Shown: one piece after another, positions 25,580-36,599 of the stretch
Layout: each line of letters opens with the position of its first letter
Position numbering within the stretch: the stretch's first letter is position 1
Origin: Alphaproteobacteria bacterium Ga0077535
Lineage (GTDB): Bacteria > Pseudomonadota > Alphaproteobacteria > Caulobacterales > Aquidulcibacteraceae
Direction of reading: 5' to 3'
NCBI GenBank assembly: GCA_001464425.1
Contig: LNEK01000038.1
Location: 29,476-93,475 of the forward strand
DNA: 64,000 nucleotides
Notes under the pieces: model-generated
Seen by the model: the letters and a program-made list of their open reading frames with translations, nothing else
What the model was told of the DNA's origin: nothing
The model's database searches: none
Made by a program: the position numbers and the translations under genes

Positions 25580-25796
25580 CGGCGGCCTGCAAAAGCGCTC
25601 CATGCGCATTGCCGGTCATCGCACCTCGCTCGCTTTAGAGCAGGAATTTTGGTCGGGCCTCGAAAAGATCGCGCGCTCGCGCTCAACAAGTTTGCCGATG
25701 CTGATCGCATCGATCGACGAAACGCGCGCCAAGGCGGCGCCGGACGCTTCGCTTGCGTCAGCGGTGCGCGTGTTCGTGTTGGAAAATCGCGTTTAG
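25557..25796 (+). CDS. Ribbon-helix-helix domain protein
   Basis: A 79-residue protein of the RHH_4 type: the strand RSMRIAGHRTSLALEQEFW, then helix GLEKIARSRSTSLPMLIASIDETR and a C-terminal AVRVFVLEN helix. RHH proteins dimerise and bind DNA through the beta ribbon, so this is a probable small transcription regulator. It overlaps DUF4169 in a different frame and ends inside the convergent TIR gene (four bases). Targets are unknown. Confidence 0.85.
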   Translation: MTMTATSSGGLQKRSMRIAGHRTSLALEQEFWSGLEKIARSRSTSLPMLIASIDETRAKAAPDASLASAVRVFVLENRV

Positions 25797-26812
25797 GGCT
25801 GCAGCGGCCGGCCGTAGAGAACGAGCGCGTAATAGCACGGCGCGACGGTGCAGTTCTGCATCACGGCTTGCGCGGTGAACGGGCCGCTCCATTGGGGGGC
25901 CACCGATACGATCGGCGTCGCATCGGGCAAGATATCCTGCGAGATGAGGTTATTGTTCTGATCGTAGAGGATCATGTTGAAGTCTGCGCAATCATTGTCG
26001 CAGACGCCGATGATCCGATACTCGCCGCCAGCTTCTAGCGTCACCGGTACGTTGGTCACTTCACCTGGCTGCAGCTGCCCGCTTACGGGCGGGGCCAATT
26101 GCTGAAAGCCTTGCGCTGCCAAGTGCTGCTCGGCTTGCGCAAGGCGGGCGAGGATCTGTTGCTCGTAGTTTACAGCGCCGGGCGTTTGGGCGGTGGGGCC
26201 TGAGGCGGATTGGATTTGCGCAGGTTGTGGCGCGGCTTGCTCGCTGCCTTGGATAATCGCGCCGAGCGCGCCCAGCACGACTACGGTGGCGGCGACGCCG
26301 CCGCCAACCCAAACCCAGGGCGATATGCTCTTCTTTTCTGGCGCGCTTGGAGGCGTGACTTGCGCAGACTGGGGTGGCGGGGCGTAGACCGGCTGCGGCG
26401 GCGGCGCGACGGGCGCTGGGCCGGTTTGCGCCACACGCGAGATGGCGTCGACAATGCGCCGCCAGCCGGCGTCATTCTGATCGCCATTCCAGTTCGACAG
26501 ATCGGCGGTCTGCACTTCGCCGAACCCAAATGGCGGCGACGCGCCATCGATGGACACGGGGATCAGCAGCCCTTTGTCACGCGCGAGGCGCGCCTCTTCG
26601 CGCACCGATTGCGATTTCGTCGAGAGCTGGCTCCACAACACGATCAGCGCTTTGCACTGGCTGAGCTTCAGCTCGATGTGGTCCGCCCAGGTGGCGCCAG
26701 GCGGAATTTCATTATCCCAGAAGACGTCGAGGCCGGCCTGCTCCAGCGCCTGCGCGACCTGACGGGCGCGCACGGCGTCCTCGCGGGCGTAAGATAGGAA
26801 TACATCGGCCAT
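25793..26812 (-). CDS. TIR-domain membrane protein with extracytoplasmic Cys-rich domain
   Basis: A 339-residue protein; start at ATG 26812 (MADVFLSYAREDA). It has a TIR_2 domain (1-128) with FLSYARED, FWDNEIPPG, ALIVLWSQ and the conserved acidic SVREEA (Glu72/Glu73, the catalytic Glu position of TIR NADases). A Pro-rich linker (131-160), one transmembrane helix (about 166-186), and an external domain with Cys271, Cys275, Cys321 and Cys326 follow. TIR domains hydrolyse NAD+ in many bacterial defence proteins. Here the layout suggests an external sensor driving a cytoplasmic TIR. Its neighbour at 26868 has a closely similar TIR. Confidence 0.9.
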   Translation of the reverse strand: MADVFLSYAREDAVRARQVAQALEQAGLDVFWDNEIPPGATWADHIELKLSQCKALIVLWSQLSTKSQSVREEARLARDKGLLIPVSIDGASPPFGFGEVQTADLSNWNGDQNDAGWRRIVDAISRVAQTGPAPVAPPPQPVYAPPPQSAQVTPPSAPEKKSISPWVWVGGGVAATVVVLGALGAIIQGSEQAAPQPAQIQSASGPTAQTPGAVNYEQQILARLAQAEQHLAAQGFQQLAPPVSGQLQPGEVTNVPVTLEAGGEYRIIGVCDNDCADFNMILYDQNNNLISQDILPDATPIVSVAPQWSGPFTAQAVMQNCTVAPCYYALVLYGRPLQP

Positions 26813-26867
26813 CGGGTCCCCTCCTCGCACCGTCCTAGCAGGAGCGAAGGCCGAATTTAAACCCGCT

Positions 26868-27845
26868 TCAGGCAGCAGCCTTCGGATCAGGCCCGTAAGT
26901 GTTAGGTCCTGGTGTTCCCGGCATCACGCCAATGACGATCGCCGCGGCGACTGCGGCCAAGGAGAGCAGCGACGCAAGCATCGCGAGCGCCCCGCCGTCG
27001 ACCGACATAACGCCGGCAACGATGCTGCCGCCGGCTACACCGGCGGCGATCCAACCGCTCTTGTTGATATCGTGGAGCCGCCGCGCGAGCACGCTTACGC
27101 CCGGCGCAAGCAAAGCAAGCCACACAGCGCCAGTGATGATCGGATTGGCCGGCGCGCCGGTGTAATCGAGGCCGAAGCTGGAATCGATCATGACAGCCAC
27201 GACCAGCGACACGATGCTGAACAGCGCCCACCACCAATACTCGGCCCGGCGCGCCCGGCCTTGGCCGTTTGCGTAGAGGCGAAAGCACTTCTTGATGTAG
27301 TCGAGCGGCGACATCTCACGTGCGGCTGCCGTGCTCGATGACCCGCCGGCCGCCATGGCCGCGACTGCAGGCTCGGAAGGACGCCACGCGGGCGGCGGCT
27401 GGATTGGCGGTTGCTGCACTGGCGGCGCAGCGCGCGGCGGCGGCGCCGCATCTGGCCCGCGCACCGTCGCGTACACAGCCTGCGCGAACCGCGTCCAATT
27501 CTGATCGTTGTAATCGCCGCGCCACTGGGTGAGATCGGCGGTCTGCACTTCACCAAAGCCGAACGGCAGTGGCGTCGCTTCGATCAGCGCCGGGATGAGC
27601 CGCGACTTGTCGCGTGCGATCCGCGCTTCTTCGCGCACGTAGTGCGAGCGCGTCGAGTGCGCGCTCCACAACACGATAGCAGCTTTGCTGTTGACCAACT
27701 TGGCTTCGATAAAGTCAGCCCAGGTTTGACCGGGCGGGATATCCGTATCCCAGAACGCCTCAAGGCCCATCGCCGACAAGCCCTGCGCAATGCGCAAAGC
27801 AGTCTCGCGATCCTCGCGCGCATAGGAAATGAAGACGTCTGCCAT
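26868..27845 (-). CDS. TIR-DUF805 fusion membrane protein
   Basis: A 325-residue protein from ATG 27845. The TIR_2 domain (1-128) is co-linear with the neighbour, including FISYARED, FWDTDIPPG, AAIVLWSAH and HYVREEARIARDK (Glu72/Glu73) and PFGFGEVQTADL. A Pro-rich linker (132-158) leads to a DUF805 domain (about 178-325) with SPLDYIKKCFRLYANGQGRARRAEYWWW and four transmembrane helices. So one TIR is fused to a different membrane module. A prophage or immune role is possible but unproven. It lies 56 bases before the second TIR gene on the same strand. Confidence 0.9.
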   Translation of the reverse strand: MADVFISYAREDRETALRIAQGLSAMGLEAFWDTDIPPGQTWADFIEAKLVNSKAAIVLWSAHSTRSHYVREEARIARDKSRLIPALIEATPLPFGFGEVQTADLTQWRGDYNDQNWTRFAQAVYATVRGPDAAPPPRAAPPVQQPPIQPPPAWRPSEPAVAAMAAGGSSSTAAAREMSPLDYIKKCFRLYANGQGRARRAEYWWWALFSIVSLVVAVMIDSSFGLDYTGAPANPIITGAVWLALLAPGVSVLARRLHDINKSGWIAAGVAGGSIVAGVMSVDGGALAMLASLLSLAAVAAAIVIGVMPGTPGPNTYGPDPKAAA

Positions 27846-27933
27846 AGGAGCCTCACGCACCGCGGATGGCGCAAGGCTAGTCTGATTTGCAGCTAGGTTT
27901 GAATTTTATTGCGGTCATATCGACCGCGGAACG

Positions 27934-28180: not shown

Positions 28181-28618
28181 CTAGAGCGGCGCGCAATAAA
28201 CGAGACTGGTTCCTTGTTGCCAAGGGCCACCGGAAATCATCATCGCGCGTGCGGATTCCGCGAATGAAAGGTTAATCGTGTGCGGAGTGGGCGGGCCTAC
28301 CGCCGTGCACGTGGCTGCAATCTCGTAGCCAGTGTTAGTCTGCCTCACGTCGTTGAAGCTGCAGGCGACTTCGCCGAGCGTGGTGATCTGGCGTTCTTGG
28401 AAGCGCCAAGCAGGCTCTGCACACCCCTCGGCGCTGGTTGCCCACAGACCGACATAACGCGGCTGCGACGCACTCGGCGGCGGCAGCGTGTCGGGGAGCG
28501 GTTGGGCCTCTCCGACCTGGGCTGCGGCCTCAGGGTCCGGCGGCGGATCGACCGCTTCAGTGCAGGCGAGCATGGAGACGGCGCAGGCGCCGACCGCGAT
28601 CAAACGGACTAATCTCAT
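28181..28618 (-). CDS. Predicted lipoprotein of unknown function
   Basis: A 145-residue protein with a lipobox ending in Cys19 (SMLAC), a Pro-rich stretch (PPPDPEAAAQ...PLPDTLPPPS), and a compact domain with four or more Cys (AEGCAEPAWRF, VACSFND, ATCTAVG, VYCAPL) probably forming disulfides. A periplasmic lipoprotein is likely. No family recognised. The gene is divergent from uvrD. Confidence 0.72.
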   Translation of the reverse strand: MRLVRLIAVGACAVSMLACTEAVDPPPDPEAAAQVGEAQPLPDTLPPPSASQPRYVGLWATSAEGCAEPAWRFQERQITTLGEVACSFNDVRQTNTGYEIAATCTAVGPPTPHTINLSFAESARAMMISGGPWQQGTSLVYCAPL

Positions 28619-28746: not shown

Positions 28747-31122
28747 ATGTCTGATCAATTGCCGATCTCTCAGCGCGCCATGGCCGCGCCCCCCTACGTC
28801 GCGTCGCTCAATCCGGAGCAGCGTGCGGCGGTGGAGGCGCTCGATGGCCCGGTGCTGGTGCTTGCTGGCGCCGGCACAGGAAAGACGCGCGTGCTGACGA
28901 CGCGGCTTGCACATCTGCTTTCGACCGGACGCGCCAAGCCGTGGGGCGTGCTGGCGGTCACCTTCACTAACAAGGCGTCGCGCGAAATGCGTGAGCGGGT
29001 TGAGAAATTGCTCGGCCCCGGCGGCGGCGGTTTACCTTGGCTCGGCACGTTTCACTCGATCAGCGCCCGCATGCTGCGCACGCACGCCGAACTGGTCGGC
29101 CTCAAGAACAATTTCTCGATCCTCGACACGGACGATCAGGTTCGGTTGCTGAAGCAGATCATCGACGCCGAAGGCATCGATGAAAAACGCTGGCCGGGCC
29201 GGCAACTCGCTGGGCTGATCGACGGCTGGAAGAACCGTGCGCTAACGCCGGAGAAAGCGCCGAAGAACGAGGCGTTTCATTTCGCAGATGGCGCGGGCCT
29301 GAAGCTCTACGCGATCTACCAAGCGCGGCTGAAGATTCTGAACGCTTGCGATTTCGGCGATCTGCTGCTGCACATGATCGACATCTTCCAGCGCCATCCA
29401 GATGTGCTGGAGACCTACCACCGCAAAATCACGCACATGATGGTGGACGAATATCAGGACACCAACGTCGCTCAGTATTTGTGGCTGCGCTTGCTGGCGC
29501 AGGCTTCGAAGAATCTGTGCGTGGTTGGCGACGACGATCAGTCGATCTACGGCTGGCGGGGCGCCGAGGTCGATAACATCCTGCGCTTCGAGCATGATTT
29601 TCCGGGCGCTGTCGTGGTGCGGCTGGAGCGCAATTATCGCTCGACGGGCCATATCCTCGCCGCCGCTTCCCATCTGATCGCGAACAATCGCGGCCGGCTG
29701 GGCAAAACGCTCTTCACCGACGATGAGGAAGGCCACCGCGTTAAAGTCCGCGGCGTCTGGGATGGCGAAGGCGAAGCGCGGCTCATCGGCGACGATATCG
29801 AGCAATGGGTGCAGTCAAACCGATCCTACGGCGAGTGCGCGGTTTTGGTGCGCGCGGCGTGGCAGATGCGGGCGTTTGAAGAACGCTTCTTGATGCTGCG
29901 CATTCCATACAAAGTCATCGGCGGCCCGCGCTTCTTCGAGCGCGCCGAAATTCGCGACGTGCACGCATACCTGCGCCTGATCCGTTCCGAGGATGACGAT
30001 CTCGCTTTTGAGCGCATCGTCAATCAGCCGAAGCGCGGCATTGGCGAAGGCACGGTGCAGAAGCTGCACGGATATGCGGGCAAGCCGCCAGTGCGGTTCG
30101 TGACCGATAACGGGCCCCTCTTCGACGCTGACACCGGCGAAGTCGTGACCGAGGAGCCGGAGGCGCCGGGCGGCGCGACGCGTTTCCGCACTCTGATCGG
30201 CGCGGCGCGGGAGATGATCCTCACCGATGATCTGCCGCTGAAAGCGCGCACGGCGCTGCGCAGCTTCCTCACGGACCGAGATCGCTGGCGCGAACAGGCG
30301 CGCACGATGAGCCACGTCGAGCTTGCGGAAATCGTGCTCGATGAGAGCGGCTACACTGAAATGCTGCGCAACGATAAGTCGCCGCAAGCGCAGACGCGGC
30401 TCGAAAACTTGAAGGAACTGGTCCAGTCGATGGCCCAGTACGACACGCTGGAAGCGTATCTCGAACACGTCTCGCTGGTGCTCGATATTGAGTCCGAAAG
30501 CGAAGGCGAGAACGTCCAGCTCTCGACGCTGCACGCAGCCAAGGGCCTGGAGTTTCCGCTCGTGTTCTTGCCGGGTTGGGAAGAAGAGGTGTTCCCTTCC
30601 AAGCGCTCGATCGATGAGAGCGGCGAGAAGGGTTTGGAAGAAGAGCGCCGGCTTGCGTATGTCGGCATCACGCGGGCGCGGGAGAGTGCGCGCATTTCGT
30701 TTGTGGCGAACCGGCAGATTTATGGGCGCTGGCAAACGGTGCTGCCGTCGCGCTTTATCGATGAGCTGCCCGCCAAAAGCGTCGATGCGGTGAGCGAGAC
30801 CGGCTACGGCATGCAGGCGCCGGGCGTGCGCGATATGGCGGTGGAGCCCTTCTCGTCCGGCTACCAATCGCCGGGCTGGCGGCGCGCGCAGGAGCGCGGC
30901 GCGTTTACCTCAAAGCCGCCGATGATCGATGGCGAAGCGCGGCTGGTGGCGCGCAGCGGCGGCGACGATTCCAGCTATTCCCGCGGCGATCGCATCTTCC
31001 ACGAAAAGTTTGGTTACGGGCGGGTGCGTTCGGTTGAAGGCAACAAGCTGACGGTCGATTTCGACAAAGCCGGGGAAAAGCGCGTCATCGATAGTTTCGT
31101 GCGCCCTGCGAGCGCAGCGTGA
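28747..31122 (+). CDS. UvrD/PcrA-family DNA helicase (3'-5')
   Basis: A 791-residue superfamily 1A helicase. Walker A is GAGTGKT (41-47), motif Ia is AVTFTNKASREMRERV, Walker B is MMVDEYQDTN, motif III is VVGDDDQSIYGWRGA, motif IV is ERNYRST, motif V is LSTLHAAKGLEFPLVF, and motif VI is RRLAYVGITRAR. The C-terminal GDRIFHEKFGYGRV...VDFDKAGEKRVIDSFV is the Tudor-like tail seen in UvrD/PcrA. It unwinds DNA in excision and mismatch repair and strips RecA or RNA polymerase. UvrD cannot be separated from Rep/PcrA from sequence alone. The stop overlaps the next lipoprotein start. Confidence 0.94.
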   Translation: MSDQLPISQRAMAAPPYVASLNPEQRAAVEALDGPVLVLAGAGTGKTRVLTTRLAHLLSTGRAKPWGVLAVTFTNKASREMRERVEKLLGPGGGGLPWLGTFHSISARMLRTHAELVGLKNNFSILDTDDQVRLLKQIIDAEGIDEKRWPGRQLAGLIDGWKNRALTPEKAPKNEAFHFADGAGLKLYAIYQARLKILNACDFGDLLLHMIDIFQRHPDVLETYHRKITHMMVDEYQDTNVAQYLWLRLLAQASKNLCVVGDDDQSIYGWRGAEVDNILRFEHDFPGAVVVRLERNYRSTGHILAAASHLIANNRGRLGKTLFTDDEEGHRVKVRGVWDGEGEARLIGDDIEQWVQSNRSYGECAVLVRAAWQMRAFEERFLMLRIPYKVIGGPRFFERAEIRDVHAYLRLIRSEDDDLAFERIVNQPKRGIGEGTVQKLHGYAGKPPVRFVTDNGPLFDADTGEVVTEEPEAPGGATRFRTLIGAAREMILTDDLPLKARTALRSFLTDRDRWREQARTMSHVELAEIVLDESGYTEMLRNDKSPQAQTRLENLKELVQSMAQYDTLEAYLEHVSLVLDIESESEGENVQLSTLHAAKGLEFPLVFLPGWEEEVFPSKRSIDESGEKGLEEERRLAYVGITRARESARISFVANRQIYGRWQTVLPSRFIDELPAKSVDAVSETGYGMQAPGVRDMAVEPFSSGYQSPGWRRAQERGAFTSKPPMIDGEARLVARSGGDDSSYSRGDRIFHEKFGYGRVRSVEGNKLTVDFDKAGEKRVIDSFVRPASAA

Positions 31123-32827: not shown

Positions 32828-33673
32828 ATGTTGCTCCTGACCGCCCTCGGCACGCAGACCCAGATCCGCGCCGCCGCCGATGAACTCGATCGCCACGATC
32901 CCTCGCCCGCCGACGCGGTGAGCTGGTTCGAGGAAAAGCCGGGCAAGTTCCGCATCGAGATTTACGTGCCCACCAAGCAGGACGCGGCGAGCGCTGAAGC
33001 GATCGTCGGCGCGGCTGCGCCAGAGCTGCATTTGAAGCAGAAGAAGGTGAAAGCGGCCGATTGGGTGGCGATGTCGCTCGAAGGGCTGCCCGCGGTGCGT
33101 GCGGGGCGCTTCGTCGTCGCAGGCGCGCATGCGTTGATGGGCGAGAACAACGGCCGCACCAAGATTTGGATCGAGGCCAGCGAAGCGTTCGGCACCGGCC
33201 ACCATGGCACGACATGGGGCTGCTTGATGGCGCTCGAAAGCGTGCTGCGCGAGCGGCGGGTGAACAGCGTGCTCGATGTTGGCGCGGGCTCCGGGGTGCT
33301 GGCGATCGCGGCGGCAAAGCTTGGCGCCGAAGCGCTGGCGATCGAGATCGATCATCGCGCCGCGGCGATCGCAGAGATCAACGCACGGCAGAACAAGGTC
33401 GCGCAGCGCATGCAGGTGATCGCCGGCGACGGCGCGCGCTACATCGCGGGCAAGCAGTTTGACCTGGTGTTCGCCAATATCTTGATGCGGCCATTGATCA
33501 AGCTCGCGCCGCGGCTCGTGCCAGCTGTTGCGCCGGACGGCACGCTGATCCTCTCCGGCCTGCTGCGCACGCAAGCGCCCTTGGTGCGTGAAGCTTACGC
33601 CAATCGCGGCATGATCCTGGAAAAACAGATTCCGAAAGAAGCTTGGATGACGCTGGTGTGGCGCAAGCCTTGA
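32828..33673 (+). CDS. prmA: Ribosomal protein L11 methyltransferase-like (PrmA family)
   Basis: A 281-residue methyltransferase. N-terminal substrate domain (about 1-100) with SWFEEKPGKFRIEIYV, then EASEAFGTGHHGTTWGCLMAL, SVLDVGAGSGVLAIAAAKLGA (SAM-binding motif I), AIEIDHRAAAIAEIN, and FANILMRPLIKLAPRL (the N-ILxxPL post-motif typical of PrmA). It trimethylates ribosomal protein L11 in the cytoplasm. The alphaproteobacterial homolog is shorter in its N-terminal domain than E. coli. An upstream out-of-frame ATG (32815) is ignored. Confidence 0.9.
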   Translation: MLLLTALGTQTQIRAAADELDRHDPSPADAVSWFEEKPGKFRIEIYVPTKQDAASAEAIVGAAAPELHLKQKKVKAADWVAMSLEGLPAVRAGRFVVAGAHALMGENNGRTKIWIEASEAFGTGHHGTTWGCLMALESVLRERRVNSVLDVGAGSGVLAIAAAKLGAEALAIEIDHRAAAIAEINARQNKVAQRMQVIAGDGARYIAGKQFDLVFANILMRPLIKLAPRLVPAVAPDGTLILSGLLRTQAPLVREAYANRGMILEKQIPKEAWMTLVWRKP

Positions 33674-33717: not shown

Positions 33718-34221
33718 ATGAGCAGGTTTACCGTTTTCGCGGCGTTTCTGGCGCTGGCGCTTTTCGCAGCGCCGCCGAGTTTTGCTCAGACGGCGCGTCC
33801 GTTCGATCTCGCGCAATTGACACCGGAGGTTCGCGCATCCGTTGAGGCCGCGCGTGCGGCGCAGACACGTGCGCTCATGGCGGCGGCGCGCTCGCAAGCG
33901 GATGGCCCTGGCCACATCCGGTTCACGGGCACTGGCGGCGACACCTACAACGGCGAATGCAATCCGTGCGGCGTCGATAGCCCGCAGCGCCATGGCGTTG
34001 GTCTGCTCTCCTGGCCCGATGGTGAAATCTATGCGGGCGAGCACATGCGCGGCGGCAATGGCGGCTTCAAACACGGCCACGGCGTTTACACGTTTATGAA
34101 TGGCACCGTGTTCGAAGGCGAGTACAGCCGCGATCAATATAGCGGTTATGGCGTGTTCTGGGCGGCAGACGGCCAACTCGTGGATCAGGGACGGTTCGTG
34201 AACGGCGAACTCGTGCGCTGA
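33718..34221 (+). CDS. Exported MORN-repeat protein
   Basis: A 167-residue protein from ATG 33718, with GGGGAGG about 7 bases before it. Signal peptide (cut near Ala23), then a helical stretch rich in Ala and Arg, and MORN-type repeats: HGVGLLSWPDGEIYAGEH, HGHGVYTFMNGTVFEGEY and YSGYGVFWAADGQLVDQGRF. MORN repeats are beta hairpins that bind lipids or proteins. Two Cys in GECNPCGV may form a disulfide. It is 44 bases after prmA, so it may share its transcript. Confidence 0.8.
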   Translation: MSRFTVFAAFLALALFAAPPSFAQTARPFDLAQLTPEVRASVEAARAAQTRALMAAARSQADGPGHIRFTGTGGDTYNGECNPCGVDSPQRHGVGLLSWPDGEIYAGEHMRGGNGGFKHGHGVYTFMNGTVFEGEYSRDQYSGYGVFWAADGQLVDQGRFVNGELVR

Positions 34222-34671
34222 TCAGCGCGAATAGACGTTGAACGCAAACCAGCACGGGGCGCTGGCGCAGCGGATCATCGCCGTCTCGATCGTGTGGCGG
34301 CCGGTGGTGCGCGGGCGGATGTGGATCACCGGCACGCTGTCTTCCAACACGTCTTGACCGATGACGCGATTGTCCGGGTCGTAGAGGCGCATGTCGAAGT
34401 CGCGGCAGCGCGTCTCGCACACGCCGACGATGCGATAATCTTGCCCCGCCCGCAGCATCACCGAAAAGCGGCGGCCCTGGCCGGCGTTAAGCCCGCCTGC
34501 AAAGGGGCCGGCCGCGCGGGCGTAGCCGTTCTCCACAAGCAGCGTTTCGGCCCGGGACAGCCGCTGCGCGAGCTCACGCGCGTACGGGTCAGGCACCTGC
34601 GCCGCGGCGGGTGTCGCCGCGAGCGTCAGCGCAGCAAACGCCGCGAGCGCCATTTTGACCCAAGACTTCAT
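34222..34671 (-). CDS. Secreted protein homologous to the TIR-protein external domain
   Basis: A 149-residue protein with a signal peptide (cut near Ala24). The rest aligns by eye with residues 215-339 of the TIR protein at 25793-26812: SRAETLLVENGY, AGQDYRIVGVCETRCRDFDMRLYD, VIGQDVLEDSVPV and CASAPCWFAF. The Cys positions 85, 89, 135 and 140 have the same spacings (4, 46, 5) as Cys271/275/321/326 there. So it is a free periplasmic or secreted copy of a putative sensor domain. Role unknown. It lies convergent to the MORN gene, abutting it with no intergenic base. Confidence 0.8.
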   Translation of the reverse strand: MKSWVKMALAAFAALTLAATPAAAQVPDPYARELAQRLSRAETLLVENGYARAAGPFAGGLNAGQGRRFSVMLRAGQDYRIVGVCETRCRDFDMRLYDPDNRVIGQDVLEDSVPVIHIRPRTTGRHTIETAMIRCASAPCWFAFNVYSR

Positions 34672-34787: not shown

Positions 34788-36599
34788 GTGTTCCAGACAT
34801 ACGACGATCCCGGCGGCCCTGCACTTGGCCGTAAGCACCTGCCCCGCTTGAGGAAAGCGCTCAAGGCCGCCGGCCTCGATGGCTTCATCGTGCCGCACGA
34901 GGATGAATGGCAGAACGAATACGTGCCGCCCGCCTATGATCGCTTGGCCTGGGCGACCGGCTTTACTGGATCGGCTGGCGCCGCGGTTGTGTTGGCCGAC
35001 GAAGCAGCGGTGTTTGTCGACGGGCGCTACACGCTACAGGTTCGCGCGCAGGTGGATGAGCAATTGTTCGCCTATCGCGATCTCGTCGATGGCGGCGTAC
35101 CGGCTTATCTGCGCGAGCGCGCGCCGAAGGGCGCGAAGATCGGGTATGATCCGAAACTGCACAGCCCTGACAGTTTGGAGCGTATACGCGCCGCCGCCGA
35201 TGCAGCGGGCGCTGTGCTGGTGCCGGTGACGCAAAATCCAATCGATACGATCTGGGACGACCGCCCGCCGATCCCGGCGGCGAAAGTTGTGCCGCAGCCT
35301 GAGACTTACACGGGCGAAAGCGCCGCATCGAAGCGGCATCGCTTGGGCGATGCACTCGGCGGCGAAGGCGCGGATGCGGTGGTGATTACTTCGCCCGCTT
35401 CCATCGCTTGGCTGTTCAACGTGCGCGGCGGCGATGTCGCGCGCACGCCGCTGCCGCTTGGCGAAGCGCTGCTGCACAAGGACGGCACCGCGGACTTGTT
35501 CTTGGCGGATGAGAAAGTCTCGCCGGAATTGCGCCAATGGCTCGGCAATGAAGTTGCGATCAAGCCGAGCGATGAGTTGCAGCCGACGCTTGCGGGCCTC
35601 GGCGGTAAGAGGGTGAAACTCGATCCTTCGACTTCGTCGGCTTGGTATTTTGAGGAACTCAAAAAAGCCGGCGCAGAGATCGTGCGCGGACAGGACCCTG
35701 TCGTGTTGCCGCGGGCGTGCAAGAACGCGGCGGAAATCGAAGGCTCGCGCAAGGCGCATATCCGCGATGGCGCAGCAGTTTCGCGCTATCTGCATTGGCT
35801 CGCGACTGACGCCCAAAGCGGCAAAGTGCAAGAGATCGAAGCGTGCGAGCGGCTGGAAGGTTTTCGGCATGACACCAAAGCGCTGCAAGATCTTTCGTTC
35901 GACTCGATTTCCGGCGCGGGCCCGAACGGCGCCATCGTCCACTATCGCGTCACCAAGAAAACCAACCGCAAGCTCGCGCGTGGGTCGCTCTTCCTGATCG
36001 ATAGCGGCGGCCAGTACCTCGACGGCACCACCGACATTACCCGCACGGTTGCGATCGGCCGCGCTTCGCCGGAAATGAAGGACCGCTTCACCCGCGTGCT
36101 CAAGGGCCACATCGCACTCTCGCGCGTGCGCTTCCCGAAAGGCACGACCGGCCACCAACTCGATGCGCTCGCGCGGATGAGCTTGTGGGAGGCCGGCCTC
36201 GATTATGATCACGGCACCGGCCACGGCGTCGGCGTTTATCTCGGGGTGCACGAAGGCCCGCACCGGATTGCGAAGTTCGTGAACACACAGCCGCTCGAAC
36301 CCGGCATGATCGTCTCGAACGAGCCCGGCTATTACAAAACCGGCGCTTACGGCATCCGCATCGAGAACCTGCAGGTGGTGACGCCCGCCGCTGACATCGA
36401 CGGCGGCGAACGGCCAATGCTGGGCTTTGAGACGCTGACGCTGGCGCCGATCGCGCGCGAGCTGATCATCAAGAAGATGCTGAGCAAGGACGAACTGGAC
36501 TGGATCAATGGCTATCACGCCAAGGTCTGGGACAAGATCGGGCCGTTGGTGGATGGCGAAGCGAAAGCTTGGCTGGAAGCGGCGACGAACCCGCTCTAG
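34788..36599 (+). CDS. Xaa-Pro aminopeptidase (M24 family, AMPP type)
   Basis: A 603-residue M24B peptidase starting GTG 34788. Two N-terminal creatinase-like domains (about 1-310), then the catalytic pita-bread domain. SGGQYLDGTTDITRT gives the first metal Asp pair, YDHGTGHGVGVYLGVHEGPH has the His ligand and catalytic histidines, EPGMIVSNEPGYY supplies a Glu ligand, and IRIENLQVVTPA another Glu. It removes an N-terminal residue before proline using two Mn ions, in the cytoplasm. The length fits the three-domain AMPP type (about 600). The C-terminal tail DELDWINGYHAKVWDKI is typical. Confidence 0.94.
   Translation: MFQTYDDPGGPALGRKHLPRLRKALKAAGLDGFIVPHEDEWQNEYVPPAYDRLAWATGFTGSAGAAVVLADEAAVFVDGRYTLQVRAQVDEQLFAYRDLVDGGVPAYLRERAPKGAKIGYDPKLHSPDSLERIRAAADAAGAVLVPVTQNPIDTIWDDRPPIPAAKVVPQPETYTGESAASKRHRLGDALGGEGADAVVITSPASIAWLFNVRGGDVARTPLPLGEALLHKDGTADLFLADEKVSPELRQWLGNEVAIKPSDELQPTLAGLGGKRVKLDPSTSSAWYFEELKKAGAEIVRGQDPVVLPRACKNAAEIEGSRKAHIRDGAAVSRYLHWLATDAQSGKVQEIEACERLEGFRHDTKALQDLSFDSISGAGPNGAIVHYRVTKKTNRKLARGSLFLIDSGGQYLDGTTDITRTVAIGRASPEMKDRFTRVLKGHIALSRVRFPKGTTGHQLDALARMSLWEAGLDYDHGTGHGVGVYLGVHEGPHRIAKFVNTQPLEPGMIVSNEPGYYKTGAYGIRIENLQVVTPAADIDGGERPMLGFETLTLAPIARELIIKKMLSKDELDWINGYHAKVWDKIGPLVDGEAKAWLEAATNPL

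Follow-up and report, generated by a model that had tools for sequence, protein, structure and literature searches.

A PPC-like four-cysteine domain as a predicted periplasmic protein and as the predicted external part of a TIR protein in an alphaproteobacterium

The stretch analyzed here, 64,000 nucleotides of contig LNEK01000038.1 of Alphaproteobacteria bacterium Ga0077535 (positions 29,476 to 93,475, hereafter the window), encodes on its minus strand a small protein of 149 amino acids (34222..34671, the solo protein) and a TIR protein of 339 amino acids from its ATG (25793..26812; 345 if the GTG at 26830 is the start) that ends in a similar domain. The question that the locus raises is how the two forms of this domain are related, and what a free copy means for a TIR protein with a predicted external part. 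Judged by sequence, the solo protein is a paralog of the C-terminal part of the TIR protein, both belonging to one four-cysteine domain family. BLASTP aligned the solo protein with TIR residues 208-335 over 132 columns with 39% identity and 58% positives (E 1e-34). The local alignment score of 262 compares with a mean of 26.0, a standard deviation of 4.3 and a maximum of 53 in 1000 shuffles, and the profile-profile comparison of the two domains gave a probability of 100 and an E value of 8.1e-47. The original prediction had proposed this shared domain from a few motifs; because the similarity runs through the whole domain, it is not an alignment limited to a C-x4-C motif. The cysteine spacing that it reported was recounted and is identical in both proteins (4, 46, 5), with Cys85, Cys89, Cys135 and Cys140 in the solo protein corresponding to Cys271, Cys275, Cys321 and Cys326 in the TIR protein. 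All four cysteines are present in 99 of the 99 domain rows collected from the family, and the exact spacing is kept in 80.

The solo protein, delineated from its open reading frame translation, BLASTP and an AlphaFold model, consists of a predicted signal peptide (about residues 1-25), a helix (28-47) and eight strands. Its N-terminus resembles a Sec-type signal ending in AAAQ, a call made by eye from the translation rather than by a signal-peptide predictor, so that the protein looks secreted, as proposed, and is predicted to be periplasmic. The AlphaFold models of both domains contain one helix and eight strands in the same order, not two different folds, and both are predicted jelly-roll β-sandwiches. 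The structure 3afg, a subtilase with a PPC-type jelly-roll, tops the Foldseek lists of both models; GOLD and collagenase domains are near the top of both lists, and TIR structures also appear for the TIR protein. In the solo protein, disulfides are predicted for Cys85-Cys89 and Cys135-Cys140, each across a strand-turn-strand. Comparison by hhalign of all 99 domain rows with PPC (PF04151) gave a probability of 96.4 and an E value of 1.1e-9 over 108 columns, with 95.0 for the solo rows alone, 94.5 for the other paralogs and 0.1 for the control; the PPC profile was built from 25 of 30 PPC stretches, five being dropped for a stop inside the stretch as cut including flanks. In the Pfam scan, PPC matches were weak in three of the 40 members of A2 (best E 0.062), and the distant member P0215 reaches the PPC gathering score. 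The solo profile, run against the sequences of solved structures, gave four matches, none of them meaningful (best E 0.2). The domain is, at the profile level, a divergent relative of Pfam PPC, and because the window proteins stay below the gathering score we file it as PPC-like, not as a PF04151 member. The earlier statement that no name is known for the domain thus holds for Pfam-level matches in the window proteins, but not for the domain as such, which is a divergent PPC-like jelly-roll by profile and predicted fold.

The TIR protein is organized as a TIR domain (residues 4-120), a proline-rich linker, a single predicted membrane helix (about 163-187), a second linker and the PPC-like external domain (residues 215-339; 25796..26170, minus strand). 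The AlphaFold model shows a helix at 166-186, at the predicted membrane segment, and lysines flank this segment on the TIR side. The external position of the domain, as in the original prediction, and the cytosolic position of the TIR domain are both predicted from this one helix. The TIR domain reaches the gathering score of TIR_2 (PF13676) and is also recognized by fold. Its E73 aligns with the Glu of 3h16, and this Glu is present in 34 of the 34 sequences compared. One account (PMC7075850) describes a Glu between strands C and D as critical for NAD+-cleaving (NADase) activity in a subclass of TIR domains. In the window's protein the Glu of the WxxxE motif is kept and the Trp is replaced by Ser. 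Together, the conserved Glu, the predicted membrane helix and the conserved Cys pairs of the external domain are compatible with a receptor that crosses the membrane once.

We give a probability of roughly 0.62 to the reading that both proteins belong to a paralogous four-cysteine PPC-like family, in which the solo form is periplasmic and the TIR protein obtained its external part by fusion with a secreted domain. Most likely, a periplasmic binding module was captured by the TIR protein as an external sensor. Some TIR proteins work by assembly; by analogy, a ligand bound outside would bring the cytosolic TIR domains together. The jelly-roll might bind an envelope ligand, such as a wall, polysaccharide or protein fragment; the clustered TIR domains might then cleave NAD+ or signal onward, whereas the solo protein would recognize this ligand or one like it but not signal.

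The solo gene is not an orphan, as it had been called. Its own genome contains four members (E 7.5e-100 to 1.4e-15), namely the solo gene, the TIR gene, the secreted-looking C30 and C37, which has a lipoprotein-like start; two further matches (E 0.11 and 0.5) are left out of this count. At least one member is present in 65 of the 299 genomes sampled from the order (17 of 54 genera) and in 27 of 41 relatives. In the class sample of 385 genomes (cut-off E 1e-5), two had a member, G000 and G026, which belong to this order; in the phylum sample (cut-off E 0.001), members were seen in 10 of 398 genomes, five of them of this order including the window's own genome. Beyond the order, two genomes of family f17 (G811 and G893) are clear and three of f27 are marginal in the phylum sample, so that the family extends a little beyond this order. 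Among 5.8 billion proteins, the solo protein had 247 relatives (best 120 listed), under a length limit that left no room for TIR fusions, and the TIR external domain had 92, of which 85 carry a TIR Pfam domain, within 0.55-1.75 of the TIR protein's length, a range in which solo proteins could not appear; the family profile returned 602 (best 120 listed). Among the matches listed, the names are mostly Hyphomonadaceae, Vitreimonas, Terricaulis or Caulobacterales, and a few are labeled Phycisphaerales, Verrucomicrobiae or Candidatus Binatia, presumably mislabeled bins. Four loci (L132, L166, L186 and L191) carry two tandem domain copies in one frame.

The tree comprises 99 domain rows from 100 open reading frames, some with two domains, over 125 columns; domain stretches below 60 bits or starting past profile position 45 were excluded. 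All 31 solo rows, 26 of the 28 TIR rows and two "other" rows form one starred clade (96/92), and 38 of the 40 "other" rows are outside it. One of the two inside, L030 of G015, is likely a TIR protein cut by the contig end. Solo and TIR external domains are the closest paralogs on the tree, and the TIR rows of the clade adjoin the solo gene of G217 (87/88). The TIR labels need four changes, all forced by starred branches: at L030, at the main clade, at G154 and at G102 of family f3. Because labels change at the main clade, G154 and G102, the sequences make it likely that the fusion occurred more than once or that the domain was replaced. The G102 frame (L168:1192-2469, minus strand), from a different family within the order, likewise joins TIR to a member of this domain family; it falls elsewhere on the tree, on a long branch, and is likely an independent fusion. 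In one clade, made up of L025-L027, L077 and L080 from G007, G004, G003, G131 and G076, the solo gene has diverged strongly (branch 0.86); G004 and G007 have a second TIR-length frame with the domain. Solo forms are more widespread and, if the remaining paralogs are taken as an outside reference, lie around the main TIR clade, in keeping with the earlier suggestion of an ancestral module. The TIR protein thus likely gained its external part by fusion with a secreted domain, the direction being no more than likely because the root was not inferred.

Both genes occupy fixed places in the chromosome. We compared 20 regions, 19 chosen for having both matches on one contig plus that of G149, and the genome-context comparison suggested earlier found the domain both alone and fused to TIR, each at its own place in 19 of the 19 regions. 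The solo gene is located between two fixed neighbors in all 19 (in G108 and G089 through the labeling step): a plus-strand gene that we take to be prmA (32828..33673) and a divergent plus-strand aminopeptidase gene, presumably pepP (34788..36599). Since the label "solo" was defined by a pepP or prmA match within 1.5 kb, this adjacency is no finding of the labeling step. The TIR fusion lies beside uvrD, on the side away from prmA, in 19 of 19 regions, with fumC on its other side in 16; the regions from G217, G108 and G089 yielded no fumC. In these regions, chosen for a shared contig, the two genes are about 6-10 kb apart on one strand. PepP, PrmA, UvrD and fumC are 62-94% identical to those of the window, because of which the arrangement is likely old and vertically kept. 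A defence-island reading was rejected, as housekeeping genes, arranged identically in 19 regions, surround the locus; this fixed order gives no support to a mobile origin, for which prophage and plasmid collections were not searched.

Several points weigh against the captured-sensor reading. For ligand, activity and topology it rests on sequence and prediction. The membrane segment of the window's TIR protein is barely above the hydropathy threshold (1.61 against 1.6). The TIR domain may be a scaffold and not an NADase, as E73 alone is not decisive and the Trp of WxxxE is Ser. Neither window protein reaches the Pfam PPC cut-off, with no PPC match at E up to 1 in the Pfam scan, and the TIR external form alone matches PPC at a probability of only 72.0. 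The tree backs the order of events only moderately (87/88), its 125 columns for 99 rows are "few" according to the program, and it has no inferred root; in addition, G102 carries a long-branch flag and the position of G154 lacks a star (91/82).

It is possible, but rather unlikely, that these are general envelope proteins, structural or PliG-like inhibitors, and that the TIR protein uses its copy only to anchor itself in the membrane or wall, not to sense. A membrane helix is already predicted for the TIR protein, and in related genera its outer part appears to differ: the TIR proteins of G149, G203 and G186, near fumC or beside uvrD, end in another part, tentatively MORN-like, which looks more like an exchange of sensors than an anchor. 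BLASTP aligned the G149 TIR protein with the window's MORN protein over 78 columns with 29% identity (E 4e-7, calculated for a single comparison), while the MORN-like part of G203 and G186 was judged by sequence appearance alone; Pfam MORN was unmatched at E 0.1 in all three.

A second alternative, which we regard as unlikely, makes the solo protein a functional partner of the TIR protein, as a hetero-dimer with its external domain, a co-receptor, a ligand carrier or a decoy; a ligand-binding partner or decoy was the original prediction's suggestion. The conserved linkage, about 6-10 kb on one strand, is consistent with this, but housekeeping genes lie between the two and the linkage may be plain synteny. 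Distances between solo proteins correlate with those between external domains when PepP, PrmA and UvrD are controlled (partial r 0.42, 0 of 500 permutations as high, n = 19), compared with a partial r of 0.09 (114 of 500) for the external domain against its own TIR domain. The value falls to 0.29 (5 of 500) without the four genomes with a diverged solo gene, to 0.28 (3 of 1000, n = 19) with rank and quadratic controls, to 0.22 (22 of 1000, n = 15) within the genus under stricter controls, and to 0.07 (289 of 1000, n = 11) within the genus without those four genomes. Within-genome pairs are also not closer than other pairs (321 of 2000 as low), a result that gives no support to gene conversion between the solo and TIR copies. 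The correlation is suggestive, not robust, and is a lead rather than a result.

The presence of one gene without the other bears on the same alternative. Among 30 genomes of the genus, counted by place and frame length, 22 have both forms, five only the TIR form (G016, G024, G244, G012 and G015) and three only the solo form (G014, G011 and G291, the last without a locus check); several of these eight are incomplete. G016 (99% complete) carries the TIR fusion, while its pepP and prmA are separated by about 90 bases that contain no solo gene. G014 (89% complete) has a solo gene but lacks a TIR gene between uvrD and fumC. G011 (91% complete) has only the TIR-DUF805 gene there, with its solo gene at the usual place on another contig. 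The region of G024 is uninformative on the solo gene, as its contig ends at pepP, and in G023 (L023) the solo gene spans two overlapping frames, a frameshift or record error. Because each gene can be absent without the other, these genomes argue against an obligate ligand or decoy pair. The proposed partner or decoy is thus weakened, keeping the distance correlation in its favor, and is a weaker explanation than a shared periplasmic module from which the TIR sensor was likely built.

Somewhat more doubtful still is a Toll-like receptor by module exchange, in which a membrane TIR protein at a fixed locus would swap its periplasmic sensor, PPC-like in certain genera and MORN-like in others, for modules from small secreted proteins encoded a few kb away, with the solo copy tuning it by competing for or presenting the same ligand. 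If outer modules do swap at one locus, receptor-like TIR proteins would arise from ready-made secreted domains. That the solo gene is instead a TIR gene stripped of its TIR and membrane parts would fit their being closest paralogs but is very improbable, since solo-type members are broader (f2, f3 and f4 of the order, weakly f5, and f17 of the class), G149 and G203 of genus g17 keep the solo gene at its usual place while the domain is missing from the TIR protein near fumC, and the tree suggests, without proving it, that the solo forms are the outer group.

A secreted-looking MORN-repeat protein (33718..34221, plus strand) is convergent with the solo gene, their stop codons abutting at 34221/34222; its start is the first ATG, our choice in a frame open from 33643. 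Directly upstream of the TIR fusion gene lies another TIR gene (26868..27848, minus strand), encoding a DUF805 membrane domain as well and recovered beside the fusion in 16 of the 19 regions and not in G013, G089 and G154. The gap between the two TIR genes is 37 or 55 bases, depending on the start chosen (26830 or 26812), and their positions make a common transcript likely. A small lipoprotein-like protein without a Pfam match (28181-28618, minus strand) is found between the TIR genes and uvrD in several regions. The own genome has 13 TIR_2 matches (loci L196-L208), 11 above the cut-off. Nine TIR frames were recovered by profile, those of L204, L205 and L208 not being among them; seven of the nine have predicted membrane segments, with differing outer or membrane parts.

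In the literature searched, the reception of outside signals by bacterial TIR proteins is little described. Titles and abstract starts of the open-licence PMC papers listed gave no account of a TIR protein with a PPC-like or periplasmic domain and no paper pairing Hyphomonadaceae with a TIR domain. A receptor-like TIR protein with a soluble twin in one cell would offer a handle, as the ligand could be fished with the twin and then tested on the receptor.

Compared with known systems, Thoeris ThcB4/ThsB, retron-TIR and other anti-phage TIR proteins have only the TIR domain in common with the window protein. PADLOC and NCBIfam gave weak TIR-level matches and chance-level names, and such defence identities were rejected; the scores remain far below the NCBIfam equivalog cut-offs of Thoeris and retron-TIR (29.6 against 220 and 22.9 against 600 bits), and scans of five window proteins named no partner gene of any of these anti-phage systems. 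Unlike TIR_2 proteins such as PdTIR (3h16), the window protein has a single predicted membrane helix and an external PPC-like domain, and its gene lies in a housekeeping neighborhood instead of a recognized defence operon. Animal Toll-like and IL-1 receptors (PMC7075850) resemble it in layout only, with a cytosolic TIR domain, one membrane helix and an extracellular domain. The order is reversed, with TIR at the N-terminus (4-120 of 339); the Pfam scan gave no leucine-rich repeat, no immunoglobulin domain was found either, and we claim no descent. The closest likeness of the outer part is to PPC (PF04151) and the C-terminal parts of the subtilases Tk-SP (3afg) and KP-43 (1wmd), with which it shares the predicted fold and a profile-level relation. 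Compared with these, the window domain has an extra N-terminal helix and four conserved cysteines, and it stands alone or behind a TIR domain and membrane segment, not behind a protease.
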